Source of the DNA: Halobacillus massiliensis
GTDB lineage: Bacteria > Bacillota > Bacilli > Bacillales > Halobacillaceae
Assembly: GCF_900166625.1 (NCBI RefSeq)
Contig: NZ_LT800499.1
Coordinates: forward strand, 1,818,115 to 1,882,114
Length of the DNA: 64,000 nucleotides
Reading direction: 5' to 3'
Position 1 is the stretch's first letter. Each line of letters opens with the position of its first letter. The translations under genes were made by a program, and so were the position numbers. Below, in pieces: positions 4,026 to 30,013 of the stretch. The notes under the pieces were generated by a model that had not been told where the DNA came from, did no database searches, and saw only the letters and a list, made by a program, of their open reading frames with translations.

Positions 4026-5819
4026 ATGAATAACAAATTAAAAGAAAAACTGGCCGTGCTGCCTGGGCAGCCGGGGTGTTATTTAATGAAAGATAAACAG
4101 GGAACCATTATTTATGTGGGAAAGGCAAAGGTTCTAAAAAATCGTGTCCGTTCTTATTTTACTGGAGCCCATGATGGAAAAACACAAAGACTTGTAAGAG
4201 AAATTGTAGACTTTGAATATATAGTGACCACTTCAGAAATAGAAGCGCTTATTCTGGAAATGAACCTGATTAAAAAGCATGATCCTAAATACAATGTCAT
4301 GCTTAAGGATGATAAAACATATCCCTATTTAAAAGTAACTGCTGAAAGGCACCCAAAGCTAATCGTCACCCGCAAGGTAAAGAAAGATAAGGGGAAATAC
4401 TTTGGACCATATCCTAACGTGATCGCAGCAAGAGAAACGAAGAAGCTCTTAGACCGTCTTTATCCTTTAAGAAAATGTAATACGATGCCGGACCGGGTCT
4501 GTCTTTATTACCATATGCATCAATGTTTAGGGCCCTGTGAATTTCCTGTTTCTAAAGAAACCAACCAGGAAATTGTTCAGAGCATAACGTCTTTTTTAGC
4601 AGGGGGACATAAAGAAATTAAAGATGATTTAAAGAATAAAATGCACGAAGCGTCTGAAAAGCTTGATTTTGAGCGCGCCAAGGAATTTCGTGATCAGATT
4701 GAGCATATCGAATCTGTTATGGAGCAGCAGAAGATGACGATGAATGATCGAGTCGATCGTGATATATTCGGGTACTCGTATAATAAGGGATGGATGTGTG
4801 TCCAGGTCTTTTTCATACGACAGGGCAAACTGATTGAAAGGGATGTAGCTTTATTTCCATTTTTTGATGATCCCGAAGATTCATTTTTAAGCTATATCGG
4901 TCGTTTTTATCTGCACCAGAATCACCTATTTCCTAAAGAGGTTTTAGTCCCGATCGGAACAAAAACAGAGCTGCTTGAAGGAATTATTGAAACGAAAGTA
5001 ATGACTCCCATGCGCGGCCGGAAGAAAGAGCTCGTGGAATTAGCCATGAAAAATGCGGAAATAGCGCTTGAGGAGAAGTTTGCTTTAATTGAGAGAGATG
5101 AAGAACGTACGATTAAAGCGGTAGAGACGCTTGGAAATGTATTGAACATTCAAACACCATATCGTATTGAAGCTTTTGATAACTCAAATATACAGGGAAC
5201 GGATCCAGTTTCCGCTATGGTTGCCTTTATTGACGGCAAACCAAATAAAAAAGAGTACCGTAAATATAAAGTGAAAAATGTAGAGGGTCCGGATGATTAT
5301 GATACAATGCGTGAAGTTATTCGGAGAAGGTATACGAGAGTGCTTAAAGAAAATCTTCCGCTTCCAGATTTAATCGTTGTTGATGGAGGAAAAGGACAGA
5401 TGTCTGCAGCGATTGATGTCCTGGAAAATGAGCTTGGGCTTGATGTGCCATTGTGCGGGTTAGCGAAAGATGATAAGCATAAAACGAGTGAGCTCTTATA
5501 TGGGGATCCTCCTGAGCTTGTGCCGCTTGACCGTAACTCACAGGAATTCTATCTTGTCCAGAGAATTCAGGATGAAGTTCACCGCTTTGCCATTTCCTTT
5601 CACAGACAGCTGAGAGGAAAGGGGGCGCTCCAGTCTGAGCTGGATAGTATTCCGGGTGTAGGACAGAAGCGCAGGCGGATGCTGCTTAAACATTTTAAAT
5701 CGGTTAAAGATATAAAGGAAGCCGTACCTGGAGATTTGGCTAAGCTGGGGCTGCCTTATCCAGTAGCCGAAACGATTATCGAGACTTTAAACAAAGAAGA
5801 AGAGCCGGCTGAAGAGTAA
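4026..5819 (+). CDS. uvrC: UvrABC excinuclease subunit C
   Basis: A full-length 597-residue UvrC that makes both incisions in nucleotide excision repair. Domains in order: N-terminal GIY-YIG nuclease ([19 protein letters not shown], residues about 17-35), a cysteine-bearing central region ([23 protein letters not shown]), the UVR domain that binds UvrB ([18 protein letters not shown], about 210-230), the RNase H-like endonuclease domain ([19 protein letters not shown] and [10 protein letters not shown]) and two C-terminal helix-hairpin-helix motifs ([17 protein letters not shown]). RBS GGGGTGAG precedes the ATG. Its position after trxA is the standard Bacillus order. Confidence 0.97.
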
Positions 5820-17852: not shown

Positions 17853-17886
17853 TATTCTTGTCCGAAAAAAAAGTCACTACATAAAT

Positions 17887-17917
17887 GCGGGTCTAGTTTA
17901 ATGGTAAAACCTCAGCC
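17887..17917 (+). pseudogene. tRNA-Gly 5' fragment
   Basis: Thirty-one bases match the first 31 bases of the complete tRNA-Gly at 18032 except one substitution (position 7, C for G, which would break the acceptor pair). The match stops inside the anticodon stem and unrelated sequence follows for 114 bases up to the intact gene. It cannot make a tRNA. Confidence 0.85.
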
Positions 17918-18031
17918 ACGAGCATAATCTTCTGCCGAATCAACTGCGAGTTGCTTCGACGCATTCACTTTCTTGAATAAGCTTGGAGAGGAAGAAGCAT
18001 GTAAGAACATGGCTAATGAAACTTAATATAC

Positions 18032-18105
18032 GCGGGTGTAGTTTAATGGTAAAACCTCAGCCTTCCAAGCTGATGACGAGGGTTCGATTCCCTTCACCCG
18101 CTCCA
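18032..18105 (+). tRNA. tRNA-Gly (anticodon UCC)
   Basis: Acceptor arms GCGGGTG (18032-18038) and CACCCGC, D-loop GTTTAATGGTAAAAC, anticodon loop CTTCCAA giving anticodon TCC, T-arm AGGGTTCGATTCCCT, discriminator T and an encoded CCA (18103-18105). All stems pair. It is preceded by its own 5' fragment and followed, after about 240 bases, by tRNA-Arg in the same unit. Confidence 0.95.
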
Positions 18106-18164: not shown

Positions 18165-18188
18165 TAGTAATGCTGACTTTTCAAAAAT

Positions 18189-18215
18189 GTCCCAGTAGCT
18201 CAGCTGGATAGAGCA
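18189..18215 (+). pseudogene. tRNA-Arg 5' fragment
   Basis: Twenty-seven bases identical to the first 27 bases of the complete tRNA-Arg at 18345 (acceptor strand, D-arm). The identity ends at the start of the anticodon stem and is replaced by 129 bases of unrelated sequence. It mirrors the tRNA-Gly fragment at 17887. Confidence 0.88.
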
Positions 18216-18344
18216 TGAACGAATAAGCTTCTATGAAAAAACATCAACGTACTGATTTTTTTACATCAATGAAATGCTTCTTCGACAATCGGGACGACAG
18301 GTGCTCAGACTATAATTGGTCTACAAAACTTAATCTTTTTACAT

Positions 18345-18418
18345 GTCCCAGTAGCTCAGCTGGATAGAGCAACAGCCTTCTAAGCTGTGGGTCGGGAGTT
18401 CGAATCTCTCCTGGGACG
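18345..18418 (+). tRNA. tRNA-Arg (anticodon UCU)
   Basis: Acceptor GTCCCAG / CTGGGAC, D-arm GCTCAGCTGGATAGAGC, anticodon stem ACAGC/GCTGT with loop CTTCTAA (anticodon TCT), T-arm GGGAGTTCGAATCTCTC, discriminator G. CCA is not encoded (GCTAAC follows), unlike the neighbouring tRNA-Gly. Its 3' half and terminator are repeated at 20487 and 22654. Confidence 0.95.
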
Positions 18419-18427
18419 CTAACTAAA

Positions 18428-18470
18428 AAACGCTGAATCTCTTGTGCATCAAGGGATTCAGCGTTTTTAT
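18428..18470 (+). terminator. Terminator of tRNA-Arg
   Basis: Stem CGCTGAATCTCTTG (18431-18444) / CAAGGGATTCAGCG (18450-18463), five-base loop, then TTTTT. Decayed copies of this terminator occur at 20543 and 22698. Confidence 0.9.
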
Positions 18471-18531
18471 TATTATGAAGGGTTTGGGGTTGCATAAGCA
18501 ATTAATTCTTCTCTCTGTTGATTGGCCAAGA

Positions 18532-18582
18532 AAAAAAGAGTGACTTCCTTTTATAAAACAAAGAAAGTCACTCTTTTTCATT
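18532..18582. terminator. Hairpin terminator downstream of SASP-like gene
   Basis: Long inverted repeat AAAGAGTGACTT / AAGTCACTCTTT with A and T runs on either side. It can act on the minus strand for the small gene at 18673-18834 and on the plus strand as a second stop after tRNA-Arg. Confidence 0.75.
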
Positions 18583-18672
18583 TAGTTTGTGTGGAAATCT
18601 AATGTTGATTAAAAAAGATAGACGGCCCTATTCGGCAAGCATCACCTTTCAAAGGCCTCCAGTAATCGCGAT

Positions 18673-18834
18673 TTAATCTCTCATTGATCCAGCTTCACGA
18701 GCCGTCATAGATCCAACCCCATTACTTACATCCTTTTGAATTTCTTGTTTTACTTTTTCAGGGTTTGTTCCTGAAGGGTTGGAATTAGGGTTCTCTTTGC
18801 TTATTTGCTGACTGTCATTCTGGTTCTCAGCCAT
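18673..18834 (-). CDS. Small SASP-like protein (53 aa)
   Basis: A 53-residue hydrophilic protein, starting MAENQNDSQQISKENPN and ending GSMTAREAGSMRD, with a strong RBS (GGAGGTG, seven bases before ATG). The segment EKVKQEIQKDVSNGVGSMTAREAGS resembles the core of alpha/beta-type small acid-soluble spore proteins (K-EI-xx-GV-xx-G-xx-TxRxxGS), but the protein is shorter and stops where the second conserved block (ITKRLV) would begin. A spore-protein role is therefore an inference. It is on the opposite strand to its neighbours, inside the first islet, with a terminator after it. Confidence 0.65.
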   Translation of the reverse strand: MAENQNDSQQISKENPNSNPSGTNPEKVKQEIQKDVSNGVGSMTAREAGSMRD

Positions 18835-19060
18835 TAATAAACACCTCCATAACAGGTAGTTTAATCAATAGCCCTTAGAATAAACAGATAACTAAAAAGT
18901 ATCACTAATTTTTTGAAAAAAGGATCAAACCATTTGAACGGCCTGTTATCTATATGATCTGAAACTTTCCAGCACATGGCTAGATTGTTTTTATTGAAAA
19001 AATAGGAAGTCATAACTTGGATGATTTGAGAAAAAATAATCTCACATGAAAATAAAAAGG

Positions 19061-19277
19061 ATGAGCAAAATCACTGTAATTAGTGATATGAAACAAACCG
19101 TGGCTAGTTTAAAAAGTGCTCAAGCAAATTTTGAAACATTTGCCCTCAGTACAGAAAATCAAGAAAGCTAAGAAGCTTTATGAACAAGCGGCAGTGCAGA
19201 CGCAAAGTATTATTGAAAGTATAACACCGCGTATTCAGATAATAGAGCAGGAAGAACCGCAATATCGCTCCGAATAA
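19061..19277 (+). pseudogene. Frameshifted DUF1657 gene
   Basis: The frame beginning at ATG 19061 reads MSKITVISDMKQTVASLKSA and on to FALSTENQES, then a stop at 19169. Removing one A from GAAAGCT at about 19163-19169 restores the reading ENQEAKKLYEQAAVQTQS and continues to EEPQYRSE and TAA at 19277. The joined product is a typical DUF1657 protein of about 71 residues, paralogous to the intact gene 42 bases downstream. Either a real single-base frameshift or a sequencing error. The only good SD (AAGGATGAG) overlaps the ATG, so an ATC start a few codons in, as in MTVxxx paralogues, cannot be excluded. Confidence 0.75.
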
Positions 19278-19319
19278 GCTGCGGGCGTTTTTTTCTTCAT
19301 TTGAAAAGGAGTGAGCAGT

Positions 19320-19526
19320 ATGACCGTCGGAGCTAATGTAAAACAGTGTTTAGCTACTTTAAAAAACATAGAAGCCATTCTTTCAAAGCTTTCCATTGAA
19401 TCAAGTGATGAAGCAGCAAGGCAGCTTTTCCATCAACAAACACTAGTTATGGAAGATATCAAAAAAGATGTGAAAAAGCGGGTAATGGAATTAGAACGGG
19501 AAGAGGAACAGTATAAAGGGTTTTAA
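19320..19526 (+). CDS. DUF1657 domain protein
   Basis: A 68-residue protein beginning MTVGANVKQCLATLKNIEAILSKL and ending EREEEQYKGF, matching the small DUF1657 family of spore-formers, predicted as a helical hairpin. AAGGAG at 19305-19310 sets the ATG at 19320 rather than the in-frame GTG at 19311. In other Bacillaceae such genes accompany yetF (DUF421), spoVAC/D/E and yhcN in mobile spoVA-2mob operons linked to spore heat resistance. Here it lies directly upstream of a yetF gene (17-base gap). Function of the domain is unknown. Confidence 0.85.
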   Translation: MTVGANVKQCLATLKNIEAILSKLSIESSDEAARQLFHQQTLVMEDIKKDVKKRVMELEREEEQYKGF

Positions 19527-19543
19527 TTAAGGAGGAAAGAATA

Positions 19544-20404
19544 GTGACAGACGGGTTTGAGGTGCTTTATAGAGGAACTCTTTTTTTAATTGTTTTGTTC
19601 TTTTTAACGAAATTATTAGGAAAGAAACAAATATCACAGCTTACTTTTTTCGAATATGTAACAGGGATTACAATAGGTAGTATTGCTGCTGAAGTAATAA
19701 TGGGGTTAGAAAATAATATATGGCACGGTATTCTTGGGACTGCTATTTTTGCTGTTTTTCCATTTTTAATTGGCCTTCTGGCCCTTCATAGTAAAAAAGT
19801 ACGGGATTTTGTCGACGGAACCTCTACTGTTTTGATAAAAGATGGGAAAGTGTTGGAACAAAGTTTAAAGAAAGAAAAATATACCCTTGATGAACTTCTG
19901 CAGCTGTTACGAGGAAAGGATATTTTTGAAATTGCGGAAGTAGAGTATGCGGTGCTGGAAGCGGACGGAAAGCTCAGTGTACTCCCTAAAAAAGATTATC
20001 GTCCTGTTACCCGCAAGGATCTGGGTTTAGAAAGTATGAATGAAAAAGAACCCCATATTGTTATTATGGATGGAAAAATTATGGATAAACCTTTACATGA
20101 AGTTGGAAAAGATCAGGAATGGTTAATTATGGAGCTCGAGAAGCAGGAAACAACTATTGATAAAGTCTTCATCGCGCAGGTAGATTCTTATGGTTCTTTA
20201 ACCATTGATTTATACGATGATGAAATTCAAGTTACTACTCCCCAGGATCGCCCTTTATTATTAGCAAACATAAAAAAATGTCAGGCCGATCTAGAACTTT
20301 TTGCTTTAGCAACGGATTCACCTTCAGCAAAAGCATTATATGAAAAAAATGCAAAAAAACTGGCCCTTTCTATGGAAAAATTAACCCCTTACCTTAAAAG
20401 TTGA
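19544..20404 (+). CDS. yetF: YetF-family (DUF421) membrane protein with C-terminal DUF1657-like domain
   Basis: A 286-residue protein with three N-terminal membrane helices (residues about 5-80), the DUF421 signature FFEYVTGITIGSIAAE, a conserved STVLIKDGKVLEQSLKKEKYTLDELLQLLRGKDIFEIAEVEYAVLEADGKLSVL block, and a second copy-like soluble part. The C-terminal 45 residues (ANIKKCQADLELFALATDSPSAKALYEKNAKKL...) align with the DUF1657 proteins encoded just upstream (SAQANFETFALST...AKKLYEQ). GTG start after AGGAGG. Probably a spore or inner-membrane protein by analogy with spoVA-2mob operons; direct function is unknown. Confidence 0.85.
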   Translation: MTDGFEVLYRGTLFLIVLFFLTKLLGKKQISQLTFFEYVTGITIGSIAAEVIMGLENNIWHGILGTAIFAVFPFLIGLLALHSKKVRDFVDGTSTVLIKDGKVLEQSLKKEKYTLDELLQLLRGKDIFEIAEVEYAVLEADGKLSVLPKKDYRPVTRKDLGLESMNEKEPHIVIMDGKIMDKPLHEVGKDQEWLIMELEKQETTIDKVFIAQVDSYGSLTIDLYDDEIQVTTPQDRPLLLANIKKCQADLELFALATDSPSAKALYEKNAKKLALSMEKLTPYLKS

Positions 20405-20486
20405 TCACTATTGGGTACAGGGAATTTTTTAGTTTTAACACATTTAAGCGGAAATATGGTTTCAAGGTAGAGTGACTTCCTAACAC
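20405..20486 (+). other. Gap after yetF with no recognised gene
   Basis: AT-rich sequence between the yetF stop and the tRNA-Arg remnant. I see no terminator hairpin or ORF here. A GGTAGAGTGACTTCC stretch just before the remnant may be badly decayed tRNA sequence, but this is uncertain. Confidence 0.4.
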
Positions 20487-20531
20487 CAGCCTTCTAAGCT
20501 GAGGGTCGGGAGTCGAATCTCTTCTGGGACG
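20487..20531 (+). pseudogene. tRNA-Arg 3' half, copy 2
   Basis: Corresponds to tRNA-Arg from the anticodon stem (CAGCCTTCTAAGCTG) through the T-arm to the acceptor (TCTGGGACG). It differs from the intact gene by a few bases including one deleted T in the T-loop, so it is non-functional. It is followed by a copy of the same downstream GCTAACTAAAAA and terminator. Offset from the intact gene is 2114 bases. Confidence 0.88.
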
Positions 20532-20542
20532 CTAACTAAAAA

Positions 20543-20585
20543 AACGATGAATCTCTTGTGTTATCAAGAGATTCATCGTTTTTTC
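20543..20585 (+). terminator. Duplicated tRNA-Arg terminator, copy 2
   Basis: AACGATGAATCTCTTG / CAAGAGATTCATCGTT (16-base perfect stem) with TTTTTT, closely related to the hairpin at 18428. Compensatory changes (CGATGAATC pairs with GATTCATCG) keep it functional, and it may now terminate yetF. Confidence 0.85.
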
Positions 20586-20645
20586 TGTATGGAGTGAATG
20601 AAGATTTGAGACATGAACGCCCCCTTTGGGATGGGGTCAGGATTC

Positions 20646-20696
20646 TAATTGCAGAAGTTGGCTTCGTATAGACCAACTTCTGCAATTTCTTTTACT
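20646..20696 (+). terminator. Strong hairpin upstream of the amidase operon
   Basis: A perfect 14-base stem ATTGCAGAAGTTGG (20648-20661) / CCAACTTCTGCAAT (20673-20686) followed by TTCTTTT. It lies inside the 250-base gap before the small ORF at 20839, with no gene directly upstream, so it may be a leftover terminator or a leader structure. Confidence 0.65.
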
Positions 20697-20838
20697 TTCT
20701 TCTGCCATTTCAACGTTCTTCAACAAAACCTCTCATAATTCACCACAGGAATTAAAGGTTATTATGCAGAATATTACGGATAACTGTGTTTATAGACAAA
20801 ACAGGATATTTAAAAATTTTATAAAAAGGGTGATAGTC

Positions 20839-21024
20839 GTGCAGGAATTGTTGAAAACCTATTTTTCAGCTAGAAATTTGAATGTTTCAGAAGAAGACTG
20901 CAGTAAGATTACTCAACAGATGGAAGGACTCGATGTTCTTAGAAAAGGGCTGGACGTTCGTTATTTAAATGATTGTGAAATTGGCTTGTACCACAGACCT
21001 ATAAGGAGGCGTGAACATGAGTAA
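20839..21024 (+). CDS. Small AtzG/GatC-like putative amidase partner
   Basis: A 61-residue reading frame (GTG at 20839, alternative GTG at 20830) after AAAAGGG. It reads MQELLKTYFSARNLNVSEED, continues as an amphipathic helical pair and ends GLYHRPIRRREHE. Size, position and the terminal arrangement recall the AtzG-like/DUF4089 proteins that precede AtzE-type amidases and, more distantly, GatC. The last 8 bases overlap the amidase start, so the two are translationally coupled. The open frame extends upstream to 20626, but that part has no coding character. Identification as AtzG-like is by context and size only. Confidence 0.55.
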   Translation: MQELLKTYFSARNLNVSEEDCSKITQQMEGLDVLRKGLDVRYLNDCEIGLYHRPIRRREHE

Positions 21025-22444
21025 GGAGCGGTTATATTCGAAAACAATTGATGAGTTGAGTGGACTGATTCGAAAAAAAGAAGTCTCCCCGGTTGAGGTG
21101 ACAAAAGCTACACTGGAGCGGGCGAAGAATTTGAACGACCAGGTGAATGCCTTCATTTCTATCACTGAAGACCATGCAATTGATATGGCACTTTTACATG
21201 AAAAGGAAATATTGAACGGAAATTACCGTGGAAAACTCCATGGGATACCGATGGCTTTAAAAGATATTTTTTTCTTTGAAGGAGAAGTCGCTACGATAGG
21301 TTCAAAAATCCATCAGGACTTTATTCCGAGTTATGAGTCGACCGTCGTATCCAAGTTGAAGGAAGCAGGGGTAGTGTTTACTGGTAAGCTGAACATGCAT
21401 GAATATGCCTGGGGAGCGACAACGGCTAATCCTCACTATGGTCCGTGCCGTAACCCTTGGAATTTAGAAAAAATACCAGGCGGGTCAAGCGGCGGTTCGG
21501 GAGCTGCGGTTATAGCTGATATGACGATCGCCTCGTTGGGGACGGACACGGGAGGGTCTATCCGTATTCCGGCTTCAAGTTGTGGAATTGTTGGGTTGAA
21601 GCCGACTCATGGACGGGTGAGTAAGTATGGTTGTTTCCCGCTTGCCTGGTCACTCGATCATATTGGTCCGATGGCTAAAACGGTGACTGATGCTGCAATC
21701 TTATTAGAAGCAATCGCCGGTTTCGATTCTAACGATCCGACAACGGTCGATGTACCGACCGCTGCCTACACGGAAAACTTGAAAAAAGATATTAGCGGAA
21801 TGGTCATTGGTGTTAATGAAGAATATTTCTTCCGTAACGTCGATTCTGAGGTGGAAGCGCTGGTAAGAGCCGGTATTCGAAAGTTAGAAAATATGGGAGC
21901 CAATGTCGTCCATGTAGATATTCCCTCCTTGAAAAATGCTGAGTTTGCTGAGCTGATCACTATCATGACGGAAGCAAGCACAGTCCACCACTCCAACTTA
22001 ATAGAACGGTCGCAGGATTTCGGGGAAGATGTAAGACTATTGTTAGAAGCAGGTGAAGTGCCTTCAGCAGTTGACTATTTGCAGGCTCAGCAGATTCGAA
22101 GACAGCTCGATGTGGAATTTGCTGAAGCAATGAAGCAAGTGGATGTTATAATTAGTCCGACGCTTCCTTTTACACCAATTGATATTGGGGCGGACACATT
22201 ATCGCTAAATAGCGAAATTGTGAGCTTTCTCGATCACATCATCCGATTTACGCTGCCTGGTAACCTCACCGGCCTGCCATCCATATCTATCCCTTGCGGA
22301 TTGAGCAACGGATTGCCGGTAGGAATGCAGATCATGGGTAAAGCGTTTAAAGAAGAAGATGTGCTGCAAGTCGCATACGCTTTTGAAAGGACGAACCCTA
22401 TGAACGGATTGAAACCAAATCTATCCGAAAGCAATTTGGTTTAA
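21017..22444 (+). CDS. Amidase signature family protein
   Basis: A 475-residue amidase. The Ser-cisSer-Lys triad is visible: Lys in GIPMALKD, cis-Ser in GGSSGGSGAAV and nucleophile Ser in TDTGGSIRIPASSCGIVGLKPTHG. The fold is that of GatA/AtzE amidases, which hydrolyse amide bonds or carry out ATP-free deamidations. ATG at 21017 has AGGAGG with seven-base spacing; the GTG two codons upstream has almost none. Its substrate is unknown; no gatB or gatC follows, so it is not the tRNA-dependent amidotransferase. It lies in the second tRNA-bounded islet. Confidence 0.85.
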   Translation: MSKERLYSKTIDELSGLIRKKEVSPVEVTKATLERAKNLNDQVNAFISITEDHAIDMALLHEKEILNGNYRGKLHGIPMALKDIFFFEGEVATIGSKIHQDFIPSYESTVVSKLKEAGVVFTGKLNMHEYAWGATTANPHYGPCRNPWNLEKIPGGSSGGSGAAVIADMTIASLGTDTGGSIRIPASSCGIVGLKPTHGRVSKYGCFPLAWSLDHIGPMAKTVTDAAILLEAIAGFDSNDPTTVDVPTAAYTENLKKDISGMVIGVNEEYFFRNVDSEVEALVRAGIRKLENMGANVVHVDIPSLKNAEFAELITIMTEASTVHHSNLIERSQDFGEDVRLLLEAGEVPSAVDYLQAQQIRRQLDVEFAEAMKQVDVIISPTLPFTPIDIGADTLSLNSEIVSFLDHIIRFTLPGNLTGLPSISIPCGLSNGLPVGMQIMGKAFKEEDVLQVAYAFERTNPMNGLKPNLSESNLV

Positions 22445-22653
22445 TTATAGGAGTGGAATAAAGCAAATTTAAATGGACTCTAGTTTTAGTCAATTGATGA
22501 ATTATATTCTTTACTTAATCTTCTATCCAATATTGAAGTGCTGCAGATGTGCATCCACCTATTGAATGGAGAGATGAGTGCAGATGTAGTTGGCTGAAAG
22601 TCAAAATTGCTAAAGTGTCTAAAGTAGTATCCATAAGGATGATGGAACTAAGT
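22445..22653 (+). other. Non-coding stretch after the amidase
   Basis: AT-rich sequence of about 200 bases with no ORF above 40 codons, no clear terminator and no tRNA-like fold. It leads into a third tRNA-Arg remnant. Confidence 0.4.
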
Positions 22654-22685
22654 GTGTATCGAGAGTTCGAATATCCACTGGGAAA
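22654..22685 (+). pseudogene. tRNA-Arg 3' end, copy 3 (decayed)
   Basis: GTGTATCGAGAGTTCGAAT followed by ATCCACTGGGAAAC aligns with the T-arm and acceptor of tRNA-Arg (GTGGGTCGGGAGTTCGAAT and CTCTCCTGGGACGC). More mutated than copy 2. Offset from copy 2 is 2153 bases. It is followed by a copy of the downstream terminator. Confidence 0.75.
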
Positions 22686-22697
22686 CCTATTTAAATA

Positions 22698-22740
22698 AAC
22701 GCTGAATCTCTTATCTTACAATAGGTTCAGCGTTTTCTAG
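22698..22740 (+). terminator. Duplicated tRNA-Arg terminator, copy 3
   Basis: AACGCTGAATCTCTT is identical to the start of the tRNA-Arg terminator; the partner arm GGTTCAGCGTTTT is partly preserved, with a longer loop. It may still terminate the amidase operon. Confidence 0.7.
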
Positions 22741-22865
22741 CTATAATAGATAAATATTGGTTTAAGTGGTAAATGAATTAATTTGTATTCCTCAAATAAA
22801 TACCTCTCGTCAGAAAGCTGTTCAATCATCAAGAGACTGTTAAACATTATCGATGTATGAAAATG

Positions 22866-22899
22866 AAAGAAGCTGAATCAAGAGATTCAGCTTCTTTCT
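22866..22899. terminator. Hairpin downstream of small minus-strand gene
   Basis: Perfect inverted repeat AAAGAAGCTGAATC (22866-22879) / GATTCAGCTTCTTT with a four-base loop. On the minus strand it follows the small gene at 22933-23103 and ends in a T-rich tract; its inner bases again resemble the tRNA-Arg terminator. Confidence 0.75.
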
Positions 22900-22932
22900 T
22901 AGTTATATGAAAGGGAAGACAAATAGGTAAAA

Positions 22933-23200: not shown

Positions 23201-24079
23201 TTAATTATGGTAGATTTCTTGAATTTCCTTAATAATTATCCCCCAGGCTATCCCGGCTTGTTCTTTTGGGCCGAGGTGAGTAAAAGCGTGTGTACATTTA
23301 CGGAAATTTACTCCATGAACATCCACTTGGGCTTGCTTTAACTTCTCAATATATTTTTCAGCCTCAGCAGAAAAAGCATCGCAATTTGCGTAGAGGATGA
23401 CGGTTCTTGGAAGCCCTTCTACATTCCCGGTAAACACAGGAGAAACAAGGAGATTTTTGGCCTGACCGGCTTCAGGAATGTAGCACCTATTAATAAAGTG
23501 TGCCGCCTGAGGAAATTTTTTTCGCAAGGGGTCGTCCTCGGGTTTTTCTGCATGCGGTGTTACAAAGTCAAGCATCGGGCACGTTAATATTTGGAGCAGG
23601 GGGAGGGGCTTTTTATGCTTTTTTAGAGTTAGTGTCAAAGCGTTAGCAATACTGGCGCCTGAACTATGTCCGCCTACAATAATTTTATGGGGATCTATTT
23701 TTAATTTATCTGCTTGGTTTAAGATCCATTGATATATTTCATACGATTGTTTGATCGGTTTGGGAAACGGATATTCCGGAGCCTTAGCATAATCAATGTT
23801 TATTACTGCACAGCCTGTCTGATTAGCAATGTAGCGGCAATAAGGATCATCCATATTTTTATTGTGCATAATGAAGGCGCCGCCATGAAAATTAATATAA
23901 ACTGGCAATTTATCATTCGATGCATTAAAAGGATAATAACAAGTGATATATGTATCTTTTACGCTTGTTTCTATGAGAATGTCTCTAACTTCTTCGACTT
24001 CCTTATGGTCTACCATCGGTTGTAATACTGCTTTGTTTGGGAGCAGTCGTAAAATTTTTGCAGCTATAGAAGTAAGCAT
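23201..24079 (-). CDS. Alpha/beta hydrolase (HSL-type esterase/lipase)
   Basis: A 292-residue carboxylesterase of the hormone-sensitive lipase group. The oxyanion-hole motif is HGGAFIM, the nucleophile is in GGHSSGAS, and the likely acid and base are in YANCDAFSAEAE and KCTHAF. The ORF is open upstream to 24274, but AAGGGG at eight bases places the ATG at 24079 (MLTSIAAKILRLLPN). No signal peptide. It is divergent from the glycosyltransferase gene. Substrate is unknown; likely short acyl esters. Confidence 0.88.
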   Translation of the reverse strand: MLTSIAAKILRLLPNKAVLQPMVDHKEVEEVRDILIETSVKDTYITCYYPFNASNDKLPVYINFHGGAFIMHNKNMDDPYCRYIANQTGCAVINIDYAKAPEYPFPKPIKQSYEIYQWILNQADKLKIDPHKIIVGGHSSGASIANALTLTLKKHKKPLPLLQILTCPMLDFVTPHAEKPEDDPLRKKFPQAAHFINRCYIPEAGQAKNLLVSPVFTGNVEGLPRTVILYANCDAFSAEAEKYIEKLKQAQVDVHGVNFRKCTHAFTHLGPKEQAGIAWGIIIKEIQEIYHN

Positions 24080-24188
24080 CGTGTATTCCCCTTTTTTTAT
24101 AATATGGTACCCTGTATAAAAGGAAGATAACCCAAAGCACTGAATAATCAGTCTCAAAAGGGTCTGAATCTGCAATGAGGTGAGAGCA

Positions 24189-25259
24189 ATGTGGCTTATG
24201 GTTATAGCTGGGATAATGACTGTTTTTCTATTTTGGCATAAAGTTTCTTTTCCTGACGTAAAAGCCAGGAGCAATGTTTCTTACTCGATCATTATTCCAG
24301 CTAGAAATGAAGAGAAAAATTTAGAAAGACTTCTCTCTACATTAATGAAGGATTACGACGATAAAAGAGAAGTTATTGTTGTGGATGATCAATCTGACGA
24401 TCGTACATATGAGATAGCAGTAAAGTTTGGAGCAACAGCGATCCAGGCGCCGCCTTTGCCGAAAGAATGGATGGGGAAATCCTGGGCTTGCTATAATGGT
24501 GCTAAAGAAGCGTCTGGAGAAGTGCTGCTATTTCTTGATGCAGATACTTGGTTTTCGAAGGATGGACCAGAGAAGCTCGTTCAATACATAGTAACAACAG
24601 GAACAAAAGCTCTCGTCACTGTACATCCTTATCACTATATGTGTTCATTTTGGGAAAAATTGTCAGCGGTCTTTCACCTTGTCGTATTCTCTTCATCCGG
24701 AATAACGCCGATACTTAAAAAATATTTGGGGGTGCAAGGCGGATTTGGTCCTTGTTTGCTTATTTATCAAAATACTTACTGGGAGCTGGAGGGCCACCAT
24801 TCGATTCGTAAGGAAATCGTCGAGCATCTTTCTATGGCACGGAGAGCACAATCGAAGGGAATAAAAACTTTTGCATACAGCGGGAAAGGTATCGTAAATA
24901 TGAGAATGTATCCTGCCAGCCTGAGAAAGGTAATTAATGGCTGGAGTAAGAGCTTTGCTTCAGGAGCGAAATCAGCATCTCCCGTGATGACGGCCGCAAA
25001 TATTTTATGGATCTCAGCGCTAGCCTCATTTCTTACGAATTTGGAAAAAGCGGGCTGGTGGAGCCTCGCAGGCTATTTCTTTATTAGCATATGGCTTTAT
25101 CGGACTTTGAAGGAAATCGGCAGCTTCAAATGGTATGACGCACTGCTTATTCCTGTTTATTTTTTGTTTTTTGTTTTATTGTTTATCTATTCCCTTCTTA
25201 AGACGTTCTTTTCTAAAGAAATGGATTGGAAAGGGCGCAATATTTCTAATAAAAAGTAA
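24189..25259 (+). CDS. Membrane-bound family 2 glycosyltransferase (CrtQ-like)
   Basis: A 356-residue protein with an N-terminal membrane anchor, a GT-A core (YSIIIPARNEEKNLERLLSTL, VIVVDDQSDDRT, LLFLDADTWF with the DAD metal-binding motif), and three or more C-terminal membrane helices. The segment PKEWMGKSWACYNGAKEASGEVLLFLDAD is characteristic of the 4,4'-diaponeurosporenoate glycosyltransferase (CrtQ) group. RBS GAGGTGAG supports ATG at 24189; an in-frame GTG lies at 24180. No carotenoid gene is adjacent, so carotenoid glycosylation is only a suggestion. Confidence 0.75.
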   Translation: MWLMVIAGIMTVFLFWHKVSFPDVKARSNVSYSIIIPARNEEKNLERLLSTLMKDYDDKREVIVVDDQSDDRTYEIAVKFGATAIQAPPLPKEWMGKSWACYNGAKEASGEVLLFLDADTWFSKDGPEKLVQYIVTTGTKALVTVHPYHYMCSFWEKLSAVFHLVVFSSSGITPILKKYLGVQGGFGPCLLIYQNTYWELEGHHSIRKEIVEHLSMARRAQSKGIKTFAYSGKGIVNMRMYPASLRKVINGWSKSFASGAKSASPVMTAANILWISALASFLTNLEKAGWWSLAGYFFISIWLYRTLKEIGSFKWYDALLIPVYFLFFVLLFIYSLLKTFFSKEMDWKGRNISNKK

Positions 25260-25300
25260 AAATTCCAGCTTCCCAAGTCGGGAAGCTGGAATTTTTTTAT
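25258..25300. terminator. Bidirectional terminator
   Basis: Sixteen-base stem AAAATTCCAGCTTCCC / GGGAAGCTGGAATTTT with five-base loop and T run, between two converging genes. Confidence 0.92.
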
Positions 25301-26670
25301 AACGGACGATCATCAAATTCATAGTGAACAGGGCCTGGTGCAACTCTGGCTCTTTCTAATGCAGGAGTGTCAGGGCGAGCGATTTGGTAGACGGCTGCTC
25401 CAACTATTTTAGTTACTTCCGTAAGTTTTTCTTTACTTATTTTATCTATCGTATCGTCAGGCGAGTGATACCATGGTTCAAGTGGAGCGTGGATAAATAG
25501 AGCTGCTGGGATGCCACGTTCAAAGAAAGGTACATGGTCACTTCGCCCAAGCTTTCCATACTCTACTACTTCTGCTACCCGGGCACCTGCAGAAGCTCCG
25601 AGATCAGTGACAAGGTTTTTATTTCCATCCGGAGTGAACATAATTAAATCGCCGGCATCACGGCTCCCGATCATATCCATCTGGAAGTGAGCTGCTGTAC
25701 GGTCAACCTCATTTTGAGATAGTGTGGAAGCATAGTGATAGGAACCTACCAGTCCTTTTTCCTCCGCACCAAACGTAATAAATCTTAACTCCGTATCTGT
25801 AGGTGTGTTGGCCATAATTTTCGCCAGTTCTAAAACTCCAGATACACCAGAAGCATCATCATTAGCTCCAGGCCCGTTTGCAACCGAATCATGGTGAGCT
25901 CCGATGTTGATAATCTGTCCGGTATCTTTATTCTTATGAGGTTTCTTTGTAGCAATTACATTGTAGGACGTCTTGTCAATCGTTCCAGCGCCTTCAACTG
26001 TAAGATTAGCAATTACTTCTTCGGACTGAAGCTGTTCGACTAGTGATAAGCCTGCTTCACGTGTAATGGCTACAGCTGGGATGTCCTGGCCTTCATAGGT
26101 ATAGCCGAAATGACTGCCGGCCTGTCCTGGACCGTTAAACATAATGACACCTGCTGCTCCTTTATCTAAGACGTTTTGTACTTTATCATAAAAAGGGATA
26201 GATCCTCTTTCTACTAAAGCAATTTTTCCTTTAATAGAATCAGGGATTTCTTCTGTAGTGGCTAATCCGACATATTCAATCGCCGCCTCTACAGACCCGT
26301 TCACAGAGCCGTTAAACGAGTGAACATCATCTGTAAAGGTTGAACCGTTTACCATAAGAGAAGATGATCCTCCATCCCATTCCTGGAAAGTAAAGGGCTG
26401 AAGCTCGGTGTCAAGCCCATAGCTTTCGAATTCGCCTTTTATGTATTGAACCGCATCATACTCACCTTGTGTGCCTGCTTCACGCGGTGCTTTTGAAAGA
26501 AGATCAACACGGTCATATAGACGGTCCGGGCTGATTTTCTTTATGATTTTGTTATCAAATGCTTGATCTGCATTTTCGTTTACTGCAGGCGGGTCAGCTA
26601 AAACAGAATGGGGAGCAGCACTTAAAACTAATCCAGCTGTCATCATTAATGTAATCGCTTTCTTCGACAA
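25297..26670 (-). CDS. Secreted M28-family aminopeptidase with PA domain
   Basis: A 457-residue exported metallopeptidase. The signal peptide reads MSKKAITLMMTAGLVLSAAPHSVLA; a PA (protease-associated) domain occupies about residues 130-220 (IPDSIKGKIALVERGSIPFYDKVQNVLDKGAAGVIMFN). The zinc ligands of M28 are visible as GAHHDSV, ANDDASG, GAEEKGLVGS, MDMIGS and YHSPDDT. It resembles B. subtilis YwaD. Start is TTG at 26670, seven bases after AAAGGAGG; the ATG at 26691 lacks an SD. Confidence 0.9.
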   Translation of the reverse strand: MSKKAITLMMTAGLVLSAAPHSVLADPPAVNENADQAFDNKIIKKISPDRLYDRVDLLSKAPREAGTQGEYDAVQYIKGEFESYGLDTELQPFTFQEWDGGSSSLMVNGSTFTDDVHSFNGSVNGSVEAAIEYVGLATTEEIPDSIKGKIALVERGSIPFYDKVQNVLDKGAAGVIMFNGPGQAGSHFGYTYEGQDIPAVAITREAGLSLVEQLQSEEVIANLTVEGAGTIDKTSYNVIATKKPHKNKDTGQIINIGAHHDSVANGPGANDDASGVSGVLELAKIMANTPTDTELRFITFGAEEKGLVGSYHYASTLSQNEVDRTAAHFQMDMIGSRDAGDLIMFTPDGNKNLVTDLGASAGARVAEVVEYGKLGRSDHVPFFERGIPAALFIHAPLEPWYHSPDDTIDKISKEKLTEVTKIVGAAVYQIARPDTPALERARVAPGPVHYEFDDRPL

Positions 26671-26864
26671 ATGAATTCCTCCTTTAAACATACGATACTT
26701 CTGTCACATTATACTATATTATGGAAAAACAGGTTTTCTAAACTCTTTCTTACATCTGGGTCTATAGGCTTGGAAGCGGGATGATGAATAGTAGAAGGAA
26801 TTGTCGAATGGCAGGGAGTGGGACCTGCTTAATTAAAAGGTATGATGGTAAAAGAGATGAAAAA

Positions 26865-29032: not shown

Positions 29033-30013
29033 ATGGATAAACAAAATGGAGAGGTTGTATTGTTCCCAAAGTGGAAATCGACCCTTGAAAACGTGGGATT
29101 TAACGCTGTTAAAGAAAAACGTTATACAGAAGCTGTTGAAAGTTTTATGACTTTATTAAATCATGAGGTGGCTTCACATGAAGTGATTACAGCCTTATTA
29201 ATGAGCTTAATTGAGCTTGGTCAGTACGAAAAAGCGGAAGATTTATGTCAGGAACAAATGAAAATAGAAGAAGATCACTATTATCAGTATTTACATATTT
29301 ATATTACGATTCTCTTCCAGGATAATCGCTATCAGGAATTAATTGATCTGCTAGATGAAGTTTTTGAGACAGAAGATATTCCTCACCAAAACCGTACACA
29401 GCTCTGGCAAATGTATGAGGTGACTAAGAAATTATTAGCTGATGCCCATAAGGAAGAAAGCGACCAACTGGAAATGGATTTTGAGAAAGCGATTCGCGAA
29501 AATGAATTACATAAGCAGTGGGCCGCTATTTCCCAATTAAAAAAGCAGCCTTTGCCTGCCGATCTTACATTATATAAAGAACTGCTTAAGAAGAATGAGG
29601 TTCACCCGATCATTAAAACTGAAATGATATTATGGTTTCGGGATATGGAAATGGCCGAGACTGTAACTATAAAAAAATTCGGGAGTGAAATTGAAATTGT
29701 TCCTGAGAAGCTTAATTCCTTTCAGTCCGATTATATTATACAGCAGATTCAATTGAGGCTTGGAGCGATTGAACAGGAAAACCCTACTATGTATGAAATG
29801 GTGCAGCGTCTTCTTAGAAATTATTGCTATGTGCGCTATCCATTATATCCAACAGAGCATGAGGTTGATATAATAGTAGAAGCCCTGAAACAGCTGGGGT
29901 ATGAATACTTACAGCTACCTTACGAGAAAGTTTCTGACGATCGGCGTATTCACAAGTATAAAGAAGAAATTGAATTGTGTGATCAGCATTATATGATTCT
30001 AGCAGGAGAATAA
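29033..30013 (+). CDS. ysoA: TPR-repeat protein (YsoA-like)
   Basis: A 326-residue helical protein. The N-terminal part has tetratricopeptide-like pairs (GFNAVKEKRYTEAVESFMTLLNHE, LIELGQYEKAEDLCQEQMKIEE, LFQDNRYQELIDLLDEVFE); the C-terminal part has a different helical fold ending with QHYMILAGE. It lies just upstream of tig, as ysoA does in B. subtilis. Function unknown; such proteins usually scaffold partners. RBS AGGAAGGGTG. The tig promoter follows, so it is probably transcribed separately. Confidence 0.8.
   Translation: MDKQNGEVVLFPKWKSTLENVGFNAVKEKRYTEAVESFMTLLNHEVASHEVITALLMSLIELGQYEKAEDLCQEQMKIEEDHYYQYLHIYITILFQDNRYQELIDLLDEVFETEDIPHQNRTQLWQMYEVTKKLLADAHKEESDQLEMDFEKAIRENELHKQWAAISQLKKQPLPADLTLYKELLKKNEVHPIIKTEMILWFRDMEMAETVTIKKFGSEIEIVPEKLNSFQSDYIIQQIQLRLGAIEQENPTMYEMVQRLLRNYCYVRYPLYPTEHEVDIIVEALKQLGYEYLQLPYEKVSDDRRIHKYKEEIELCDQHYMILAGE

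Follow-up and report, generated by a model that had tools for sequence, protein, structure and literature searches.

Genomic islands, integrative and conjugative elements (ICEs) and prophages that reside at tRNA genes use tyrosine integrases and attachment (att) sites in the anticodon loop. A locus of this kind is described here from Halobacillus massiliensis (genome G000, 4.31 Mb in 2 contigs), in which an intact tRNA-Arg(UCU) gene is followed by two gene islets, each ending in a displaced copy of the tRNA 3′ end, and in which this gene and a neighboring tRNA-Gly gene are each preceded by a 5′ tRNA fragment and an ~80-nt element. The window is the whole stretch of 64,000 nt that was analyzed, and its features are collected in table 1. 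The locus shares with tRNA-gene islands, ICEs, and prophages the displaced tRNA 3′ end, the restored tRNA, an integrase adjoining the tRNA in relatives and variable content, and differs in that its two units are ~2 kb long and lack an integrase. It also resembles cis-mobilizable elements (CIMEs) and the site-specific accretion of ICEs and integrative and mobilizable elements in that tandem units without their own recombinase are divided by att-like repeats; in the window the repeats are decayed and mobilization in trans is putative. With a probability of about 90%, the tRNA-Arg(UCU) gene is an integration hotspot and the islets are stumps of former islands separated by decaying att scars. Islands at tRNA genes are a known and ordinary kind, of which the two islets are new members; they document the decay of such islands to stumps, which is useful and equally ordinary.

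A blast search of the whole genome of H. massiliensis with the tRNA-Arg gene and its terminator (query 18340–18480) yielded 27 matches at E ≤ 1. A first-pass annotation of the window had reported that the tRNA 3′ end and terminator recur twice, and both copies were recovered far above chance: copy 2 covers query positions 31–129 with 90% identity (E 3.6e-30) and copy 3 covers positions 41–128 with 77% identity (E 2e-9). They are the sole displaced 3′ copies of tRNA-Arg(UCU) found in the genome; by the part of the query covered, the remaining matches are other tRNA genes, opposite-strand terminator palindromes, short weak matches, and the 29-nt 5′ copy of tRNA-Arg discussed below. The spacings of 2114 and 2155 nt (2154 via another repeat family) agree with the 2114 and 2153 given earlier. 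Copy 2 retains a perfect 20-bp terminator stem in which both arms have changed (CGCTGAATC to CGATGAATC and GATTCAGCG to GATTCATCG), and in copy 3 the anticodon arm is largely gone. This increasing decay fits the proposed successive insertion beside the intact gene and is no proof of age.

Displaced 3′ copies are present, by our reading, in seven out of 41 genomes (the own genome and 40 relatives), namely G000, G004, G013, G015, G020, G024, and G026, a count to which neither the weak match on contig C12 of G030 nor the second, near-full copy on contig C46 of G031 contributes. Their left edge is constant in five genomes: the displaced copies of G004 (copy 2), G013, G015, and G024 share their first base at the start of the anticodon stem (CAACAGCCTTC / CAACAGCC), and copy 2 of the window, which begins CACCAGCC, has the same edge. 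The displaced copies might instead be what remains of a tandem array of tRNA-Arg genes that decayed to 3′ halves and terminators amid unrelated genes, and the terminators kept by copies 2 and 3 would suit such an origin, as would the stem of copy 2, changed on both arms as if functional. However, in five genomes the tRNA part of the copies starts at one common base, without any 5′ half, integrases adjoin the gene in five relatives, and each of the 11 genomes of the genus (own included) has one full-length tRNA-Arg(UCU) match; decay of a tandem array was rejected on the constant left edge and is very improbable. The pattern that would point to decayed tRNA genes, both islets together with several intact tRNA-Arg genes, does not occur in these 11 genomes, and in the other 10 no match to the YetF protein or the amidase lies within ~18 kb downstream of tRNA-Arg.

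The tyrosine-integrase domain PF00589 was sought in nine genomes (G000, G004, G009, G013, G015, G020, G024, G026, and G031), a search for integrases using tRNA-Arg(UCU) having been suggested earlier. In five of the seven genomes with displaced copies, the domain adjoins tRNA-Arg or a copy of the core at 0.1–2.4 kb (1.8 kb in G004, 2.4 kb in G013, 0.14 kb in G015, 0.15 kb on contig C4 of G024, and 0.5 kb, with an internal stop, in G026); none was found near tRNA-Arg or the core in G000 or G020. The integrase genes of G003, G004, G013, and G015 are 56–93% alike. Contig C4 of G024 (39,587 bp) carries the 51-nt core at both ends with the integrase beside the core, as a circular element would assemble.

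The content behind the tRNA-Arg gene differs between genomes. In G004, displaced copies lie ~70 and ~80 kb downstream, and the intervals of ~70 kb and 10.4 kb fill the places of islets 1 and 2; since these intervals differ from the window islets, the same slots hold different content. Past the last displaced copy of G004, one unrelated open reading frame (ORF) is followed by abhydrolase-GT2-M28 genes, as found past copy 3 of the window. The site is nearly empty in G011, G016, and G018, where a homologue of the window gene at 29033 lies within ~0.2 kb of tRNA-Arg, a distance of 10.6 kb in the window. Beyond this near-empty site the genes presumably follow the Bacillus order ysoA, tig, clpX, lon. 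A site that is empty or differently filled in relatives is a defining feature of tRNA-targeted genomic islands. The tRNA-Arg gene is regarded as a hotspot because of the displaced copies, their common left edge, the integrases of the relatives, the differing content, and the near-empty sites, and the same evidence, except the mere presence of the copies, upholds the first-pass view of the displaced 3′ ends as integration scars.

Tyrosine-integrase elements would have recombined with the tRNA-Arg gene through an attachment core reaching from the anticodon stem to the tRNA 3′ end. Each integration would restore the tRNA and move the former 3′ end, terminator included, farther downstream. At least two such integrations probably took place in the genome of H. 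massiliensis, and later deletions would have removed the integrases and most of the content, leaving two stumps of ~2 kb. The number and order of these events, with each islet corresponding to one former element, are inferred.

Several observations weigh against this history. The displaced copy of G020 begins a few bases before the common edge, lies far from its tRNA-Arg gene and has no integrase adjoining it; the second copy of G004 and the copy of G026 begin a few bases after the edge, and the left edge of copy 3 of the window, with most of the anticodon arm gone, is too decayed to judge. The attP-side copy of G024 has its own terminator and all three copies in the window have related ones, so the attP regions of the elements must have carried a host-like terminator. 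The YetF relatives in G002 and G004 (64–66%) sit away from tRNA-Arg, so the arrival of the islet 1 content on a tRNA-Arg island is unproven, and the loss of its middle part (see below) could have happened elsewhere. Finally, no integrase or excised form was seen in the window islets and, because no PF00589 domain lies near the tRNA-Arg gene of the window, they are called remnants and not islands.

The missing integrase had been explained earlier in two ways, by remnants or by enzymes acting in trans. If the islets were cis-mobilizable units that are still moved by an integrase in trans, their position between core-like repeats without an integrase of their own would be accounted for, and related islands do exist in relatives. 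Att-like repeats flank both islets, as in CIMEs, and neither has its own tyrosine integrase (other recombinase families were not searched). Yet the own genome holds no close relative of the G004 integrase (best match 34% identity), the copies have diverged to 90% and 77%, and copy 3 lacks most of the anticodon arm, which makes movement in trans improbable. The explanation by remnants is supported by the absence of that integrase relative and by the structure of islet 1.

The genes reported earlier for the islets (a small acid-soluble spore protein (SASP)-like gene, DUF1657 genes and a YetF gene in islet 1; a small protein and an amidase in islet 2) agree with the gene content found, except that the first DUF1657 gene is only a remnant and the SASP-like ORF has no Pfam match. 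Two alignments, of 126 nt (78% identity) and 1108 nt (69% identity), link islet 1 to the two ends of an operon in G002. This operon has the order DUF1657, YhcN/YlaJ-like (22 bits against a cut-off of 26.3), SpoVAC/SpoVAEB, SpoVAD, SpoVAC/SpoVAEB, DUF1657, YetF/DUF421+DUF1657, which we take to be that of the spoVA2mob operon. Its middle 2.46 kb, with the YhcN/YlaJ-like, SpoVAC, SpoVAD, and SpoVAEB genes, is absent from the window. Islet 1 thus resembles spoVA2mob/2Duf in carrying DUF1657, DUF1657, and YetF/DUF421+DUF1657 genes in the order of the G002 operon, and differs in lacking the YhcN/YlaJ, SpoVAC, SpoVAD, and SpoVAEB part and in its broken first DUF1657 gene; the full set (DUF1657-YhcN-SpoVAC-SpoVAD-SpoVAE-DUF1657-2Duf) is incomplete in islet 1, and all seven members are found in G002. 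Judged from the sequence, islet 1 appears to descend from a larger spoVA2mob-like operon by internal deletion. CIMEs arise by deletion from integrative elements, and for islet 1, with its operon lacking the middle, such an origin from a hypothetical source element is possible. The domain make-up YetF/DUF421+DUF1657 is that given for the 2Duf protein in PMC10126465, and the spoVA2mob operon is carried by a Tn1546-like transposon according to PMC5133452. The amidase of islet 2 is present in one of the 11 genomes of the genus (E ≤ 1e-100).

Table 1. Features of the tRNA-Gly/tRNA-Arg locus in the window
Feature	Position	Strand	Support
5′ fragment of tRNA-Gly, tRNA positions 1–31	17887–17917	+	
R1-type nested element (ACGAGC...GAAGCATG)	17918–18001	+	R1 model, 96.2 bits
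Intact tRNA-Gly(TCC)	18032–18105	+	
5′ fragment of tRNA-Arg, tRNA positions 1–27	18189–18215	+	
R2-type nested element; model start in D-stem, element proper from ~18216	18211–18299	+	R2 model, 85.2 bits
Intact tRNA-Arg(TCT), putative integration site	18345–18419	+	
tRNA-Arg terminator, copy 1	18425–18467	+	
Islet 1, probable island remnant	18468–20483		
SASP-like ORF, 53 aa (name from the first-pass annotation)	18673–18834	-	No Pfam match
DUF1657 remnant; overlapping DNA ~19068–19193 matches first gene of G002 operon	19116–19277	+	25.6 bits, under the Pfam cut-off of 27.7
DUF1657 protein	19311–19526	+	Pfam
YetF/DUF421 + DUF1657 protein, 2Duf domain make-up	19544–20404	+	Pfam
Displaced tRNA-Arg 3′ end and terminator, copy 2	20484–20583	+	Blast of own genome
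Islet 2, probable island remnant	20584–22647		
~62-aa reading frame before amidase, 3′ part of ORF 20626–21024	20836–21024	+	
Amidase (PF01425)	21011–22444	+	Pfam
Displaced tRNA-Arg 3′ end and terminator, copy 3, most decayed	22648–22736	+	Blast of own genome
Abhydrolase, glycosyltransferase, and M28-like genes past the last displaced copy in G000 and G004	23201–26691		Pfam on first two; M28 is our label
Gene directly after tRNA-Arg in near-empty-site relatives; presumably the position of ysoA in B. subtilis	29033–30013	+	

A palindrome at 22856–22907, 120 nt past copy 3, resembles the tRNA-Arg terminator with a shortened loop and is possibly a fourth, tRNA-less scar. Weak Rfam matches at the terminators lie far under the gathering scores and were taken as chance. 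Of 1508 phage records resembling the tRNA end, the 20 listed are tRNA genes where annotated, and are uninformative.

The arrangement upstream of the two tRNA genes (tRNA 5′ fragment, ~80-nt element, intact tRNA) had gone without mention in the first-pass annotation and has no visible connection with the islands, so that it is considered separately. The tRNA-Gly 5′ copy (17876–17917) matches at 88% of 42 nt and lies 145 nt upstream of its intact gene, and the tRNA-Arg 5′ copy (18187–18215) matches at 29/29 nt, 156 nt upstream. The Gly-type element (R1, alignment A1) and the Arg-type element (R2, alignment A2) look related. Each was searched for with a model of 10 sequences that include the window element, so the matches in the window are expected. 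A search of the window and of loci from five relatives gave no Rfam match to the elements, and the literature searched contained, in its accessible parts, no description of an ~80-nt element of this kind. R1 and R2 probably represent an undescribed family of ~80-nt intron-like mobile elements that reside in Bacillales tRNA genes with precise insertion. Such an element would enter the 5′ half of a tRNA copy (in the D-loop, at the 26/27 junction, or in the anticodon loop) without duplicating its target, behind the motif NAGNN and nearly always in the sense of the tRNA; tandem arrays would form upstream of an intact tRNA. Its spread may involve either RNA, which would insert into tRNA loops in a manner like reverse splicing, or transposition as single-stranded DNA. 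If so, tiny mobile elements of this kind occur widely without being annotated and can mislead tRNA annotation and searches for att sites, and their helix, target motif, and orientation make the movement of an 80-nt noncoding element directly testable.

Within the order, 73 out of 150 genomes gave matches to the R1 model at E ≤ 0.001, the highest count in one genome being at least 30. In a phylum-wide draw of 199 genomes the own genome alone matched at E ≤ 1e-5, and among the rows listed there were just two other genomes of the order. Within the genus, Gly units occur in five of the 11 genomes (G000, G002, G005, G006, and G010, with a remnant seen by eye in G001) and Arg units in three (G000, G004, and G007). 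A pattern scan of named genomes returned at least 117 stretches; of the 80 listed, 79 carry Bacillaceae-type genus names (Halobacillus, Evansella, Litchfieldia, Geobacillus, Anoxybacillus, and others) and the remaining one, a Bacteroidetes bin, is a chance match. A second, weaker R1 element of the own genome lies beside another tRNA-Gly(TCC) gene (locus L298, G000:C2:3072846–3072930). R1 matches in plasmids came from two records of Anoxybacillus, in which the genes annotated around the match appear to be chromosomal, and were discarded; a second R1 query found none in plasmids, and R1 found none in the phage collection. Five of 11 IMG/VR stretches hold, by eye, just chance matches.

When the window and 24 relatives were placed side by side, the same layout with conserved sequence past the fragment was seen in many of the relatives. 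An earlier analysis took 52 out of 62 matches, omitting the ten weakest. Alignment A3 was built from the best 150 of 169 R1 matches, from which two L166 rows repeating L057 were removed. In the resulting 148 a same-strand tRNA lies within 700 nt downstream in 145; two of the other three are within 100 nt of the end of their stretch, and the third (L147) has 801 tRNA-free nt downstream. The R1 model holds no tRNA sequence, and in 131 out of the 145 matches a 5′ fragment of that very tRNA lies immediately before the element (18/725 in a control with other tRNAs). For R2, a downstream tRNA follows 21 out of 23 matches and a 5′ fragment precedes 14 of the 21 (control 0/105), and the two matches without a detected tRNA precede an intron-split tRNA-Arg. 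The units involve tRNAs for Gly, Lys, Met, Asn, Phe, Thr, Asp, Val, Arg, and Ala. For most of these the cut falls at preferred positions, which for Gly is after 31, for Lys after 17 or 26, for Met after 14, and for Thr after 23–25.

So regular a downstream tRNA could also mean that the 5′ partial copies and the ~80-nt element are conserved regulatory leaders of tRNA genes and not mobile insertions, a possibility with which the close match of the fragments to the tRNA they precede and the compensatory changes in one helix (see below) are in keeping. It is nevertheless an unlikely one, given the patchy distribution between close species, the differing cut positions, the occurrence of the element in non-tRNA repeats, and its intron-like junctions. 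As to the distribution, G010 has a Gly unit and G003 a plain gene, and the neighboring proteins of the two are 98–99% identical; either state could be ancestral in this pair, because loss by way of the 33-nt repeats would leave an identical picture. As to the location, 170 pattern matches (from the named-genome stretches and viral loci) comprise 100 with a tRNA on the same strand in the 900 nt downstream, 51 with at least 900 tRNA-free nt, and 19 too near an end. About 43 of the 51 carry the element by eye, mostly in Evansella and Litchfieldia among the titled loci; many lie inside other repeats and a few have matching empty sites. Such non-tRNA locations with matching empty sites indicate that the element has moved and that its location is not restricted to tRNAs.

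The junctions also accord with a mobile, intron-like element. No duplication of the target was seen at the insertions, which resemble those of introns, and past the element the tRNA sequence goes on for a few bases and then decays. On the right side, exact agreement with the tRNA extends for 2.6 nt on average, and 42% of 179 units have a run of 3 nt or more (0.57 nt and 3% after shuffling continuations among units), a count restricted to units with an anchored 5′ fragment and silent on those without one. The target motif NAGNN has an A at -4 in 88% and a G at -3 in 86% of 57 distinct left 8-mers. The elements for both analyses, and for the joined flanks below, were taken by a script that demanded a perfectly complementary helix, which makes this set unusable for judging pairing. 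In G025 (L073, 4503–4676) an R1 element interrupts an R2 unit in its D-loop part, with no duplication, which implies that one element inserted into the host fragment of the other. In Geobacillus zalihae (L230, 4345–4801) the element splits a tRNA-Arg of which nearly the whole 3′ half is retained. Past this split tRNA, the end of an opposite-strand reading frame (4635–4799) looks, by our reading, like a tyrosine integrase.

The helix of the element is under covariation. Among 144 distinct sequences, in an alignment fitted to the R1 model on which the counts rest, the helix columns 36–41/82–87 and the pair 44–78 are kept by two-sided changes (38–85, CG 79 and UA 62; 39–84, CG 111 and UA 29; 40–83, UA 92 and CG 48; 44–78, CG 134, AU 6, and UA 3). 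Only five G-U pairs and three C-A mismatches occur in 1007 cells; this scarcity of G-U could reflect pairing at the DNA level or a very strict RNA. The G and A residues flanking 44–78 would allow sheared G-A pairs. In the first ten R1 sequences, three of five measures of covariation exceed every shuffle.

Some results are weaker than this reading or count against it. In the Gly units, the largest group (72 units), the exact tRNA run past the element usually amounts to one base, which makes the right junction less certain there. Of 266 joined flanks, 44 have a match spanning the junction, many of which are other filled copies and not empty sites. No 5′ fragment is recognizable in 14 of the 145 R1 matches with a tRNA. 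Two of the five covariation measures fail in the first ten sequences (two-sided pair changes, 3 vs 1.5, reached by 65/500; further pair types, 3 vs 4.5).

Three described systems are closest to these elements. Group I introns in tRNA genes insert precisely and without target duplication. R1 and R2 share both features with them and differ in being ~80 nt long, in having no Rfam match, in that the intact tRNA is a separate downstream copy, and in occurring in other repeats as well; the group I catalytic core (RF00028) had no match in R1 or R2 in the window and the loci of five relatives. IS200/IS605-derived elements, small elements of the repetitive extragenic palindrome type and Rickettsia palindromic elements are short, noncoding, and hairpin-forming. 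R1 is likewise short, noncoding, and hairpin-forming, and its lack of target duplication and its strand-specific 5′ target motif are those of the IS200/IS605 type; it differs in its concentration in the 5′ halves of tRNA genes. The transposase domain Y1_Tnp occurs in 11 out of 12 element-rich and 10 out of 12 element-free genomes, which shows no association among these 24, and G035 has 17 R1 matches and no Y1_Tnp match. The tyrT operon of E. coli contains tRNA-fragment repeats, with 3′ fragments downstream of the tRNA. The tandem units, each with a tRNA fragment beside an intact tRNA gene, are alike, whereas the R1 and R2 units are 5′ fragments that lie upstream and contain an insertion.

Insertions of another kind were seen in the tRNA-Arg(UCU) genes of three relatives, where 205–315 nt split the anticodon loop (in oriented coordinates, L057, 2220–2507 in G012; L064, 1774–2159 in G030; L065, 12200–12590 in G038). 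The insertion in G012 matches RF00028 with 39.4 bits (E 3.6e-8), under the gathering score of 50, and those in G030 and G038 are alike by eye; a literature search for group I introns in tRNA-Arg of Bacillus returned, in the portions accessible, unrelated work alone. Locus L064 of G030 also contains, at 1491–1717 in locus coordinates, two matches to the Bacillaceae-1 RNA (RF01690).

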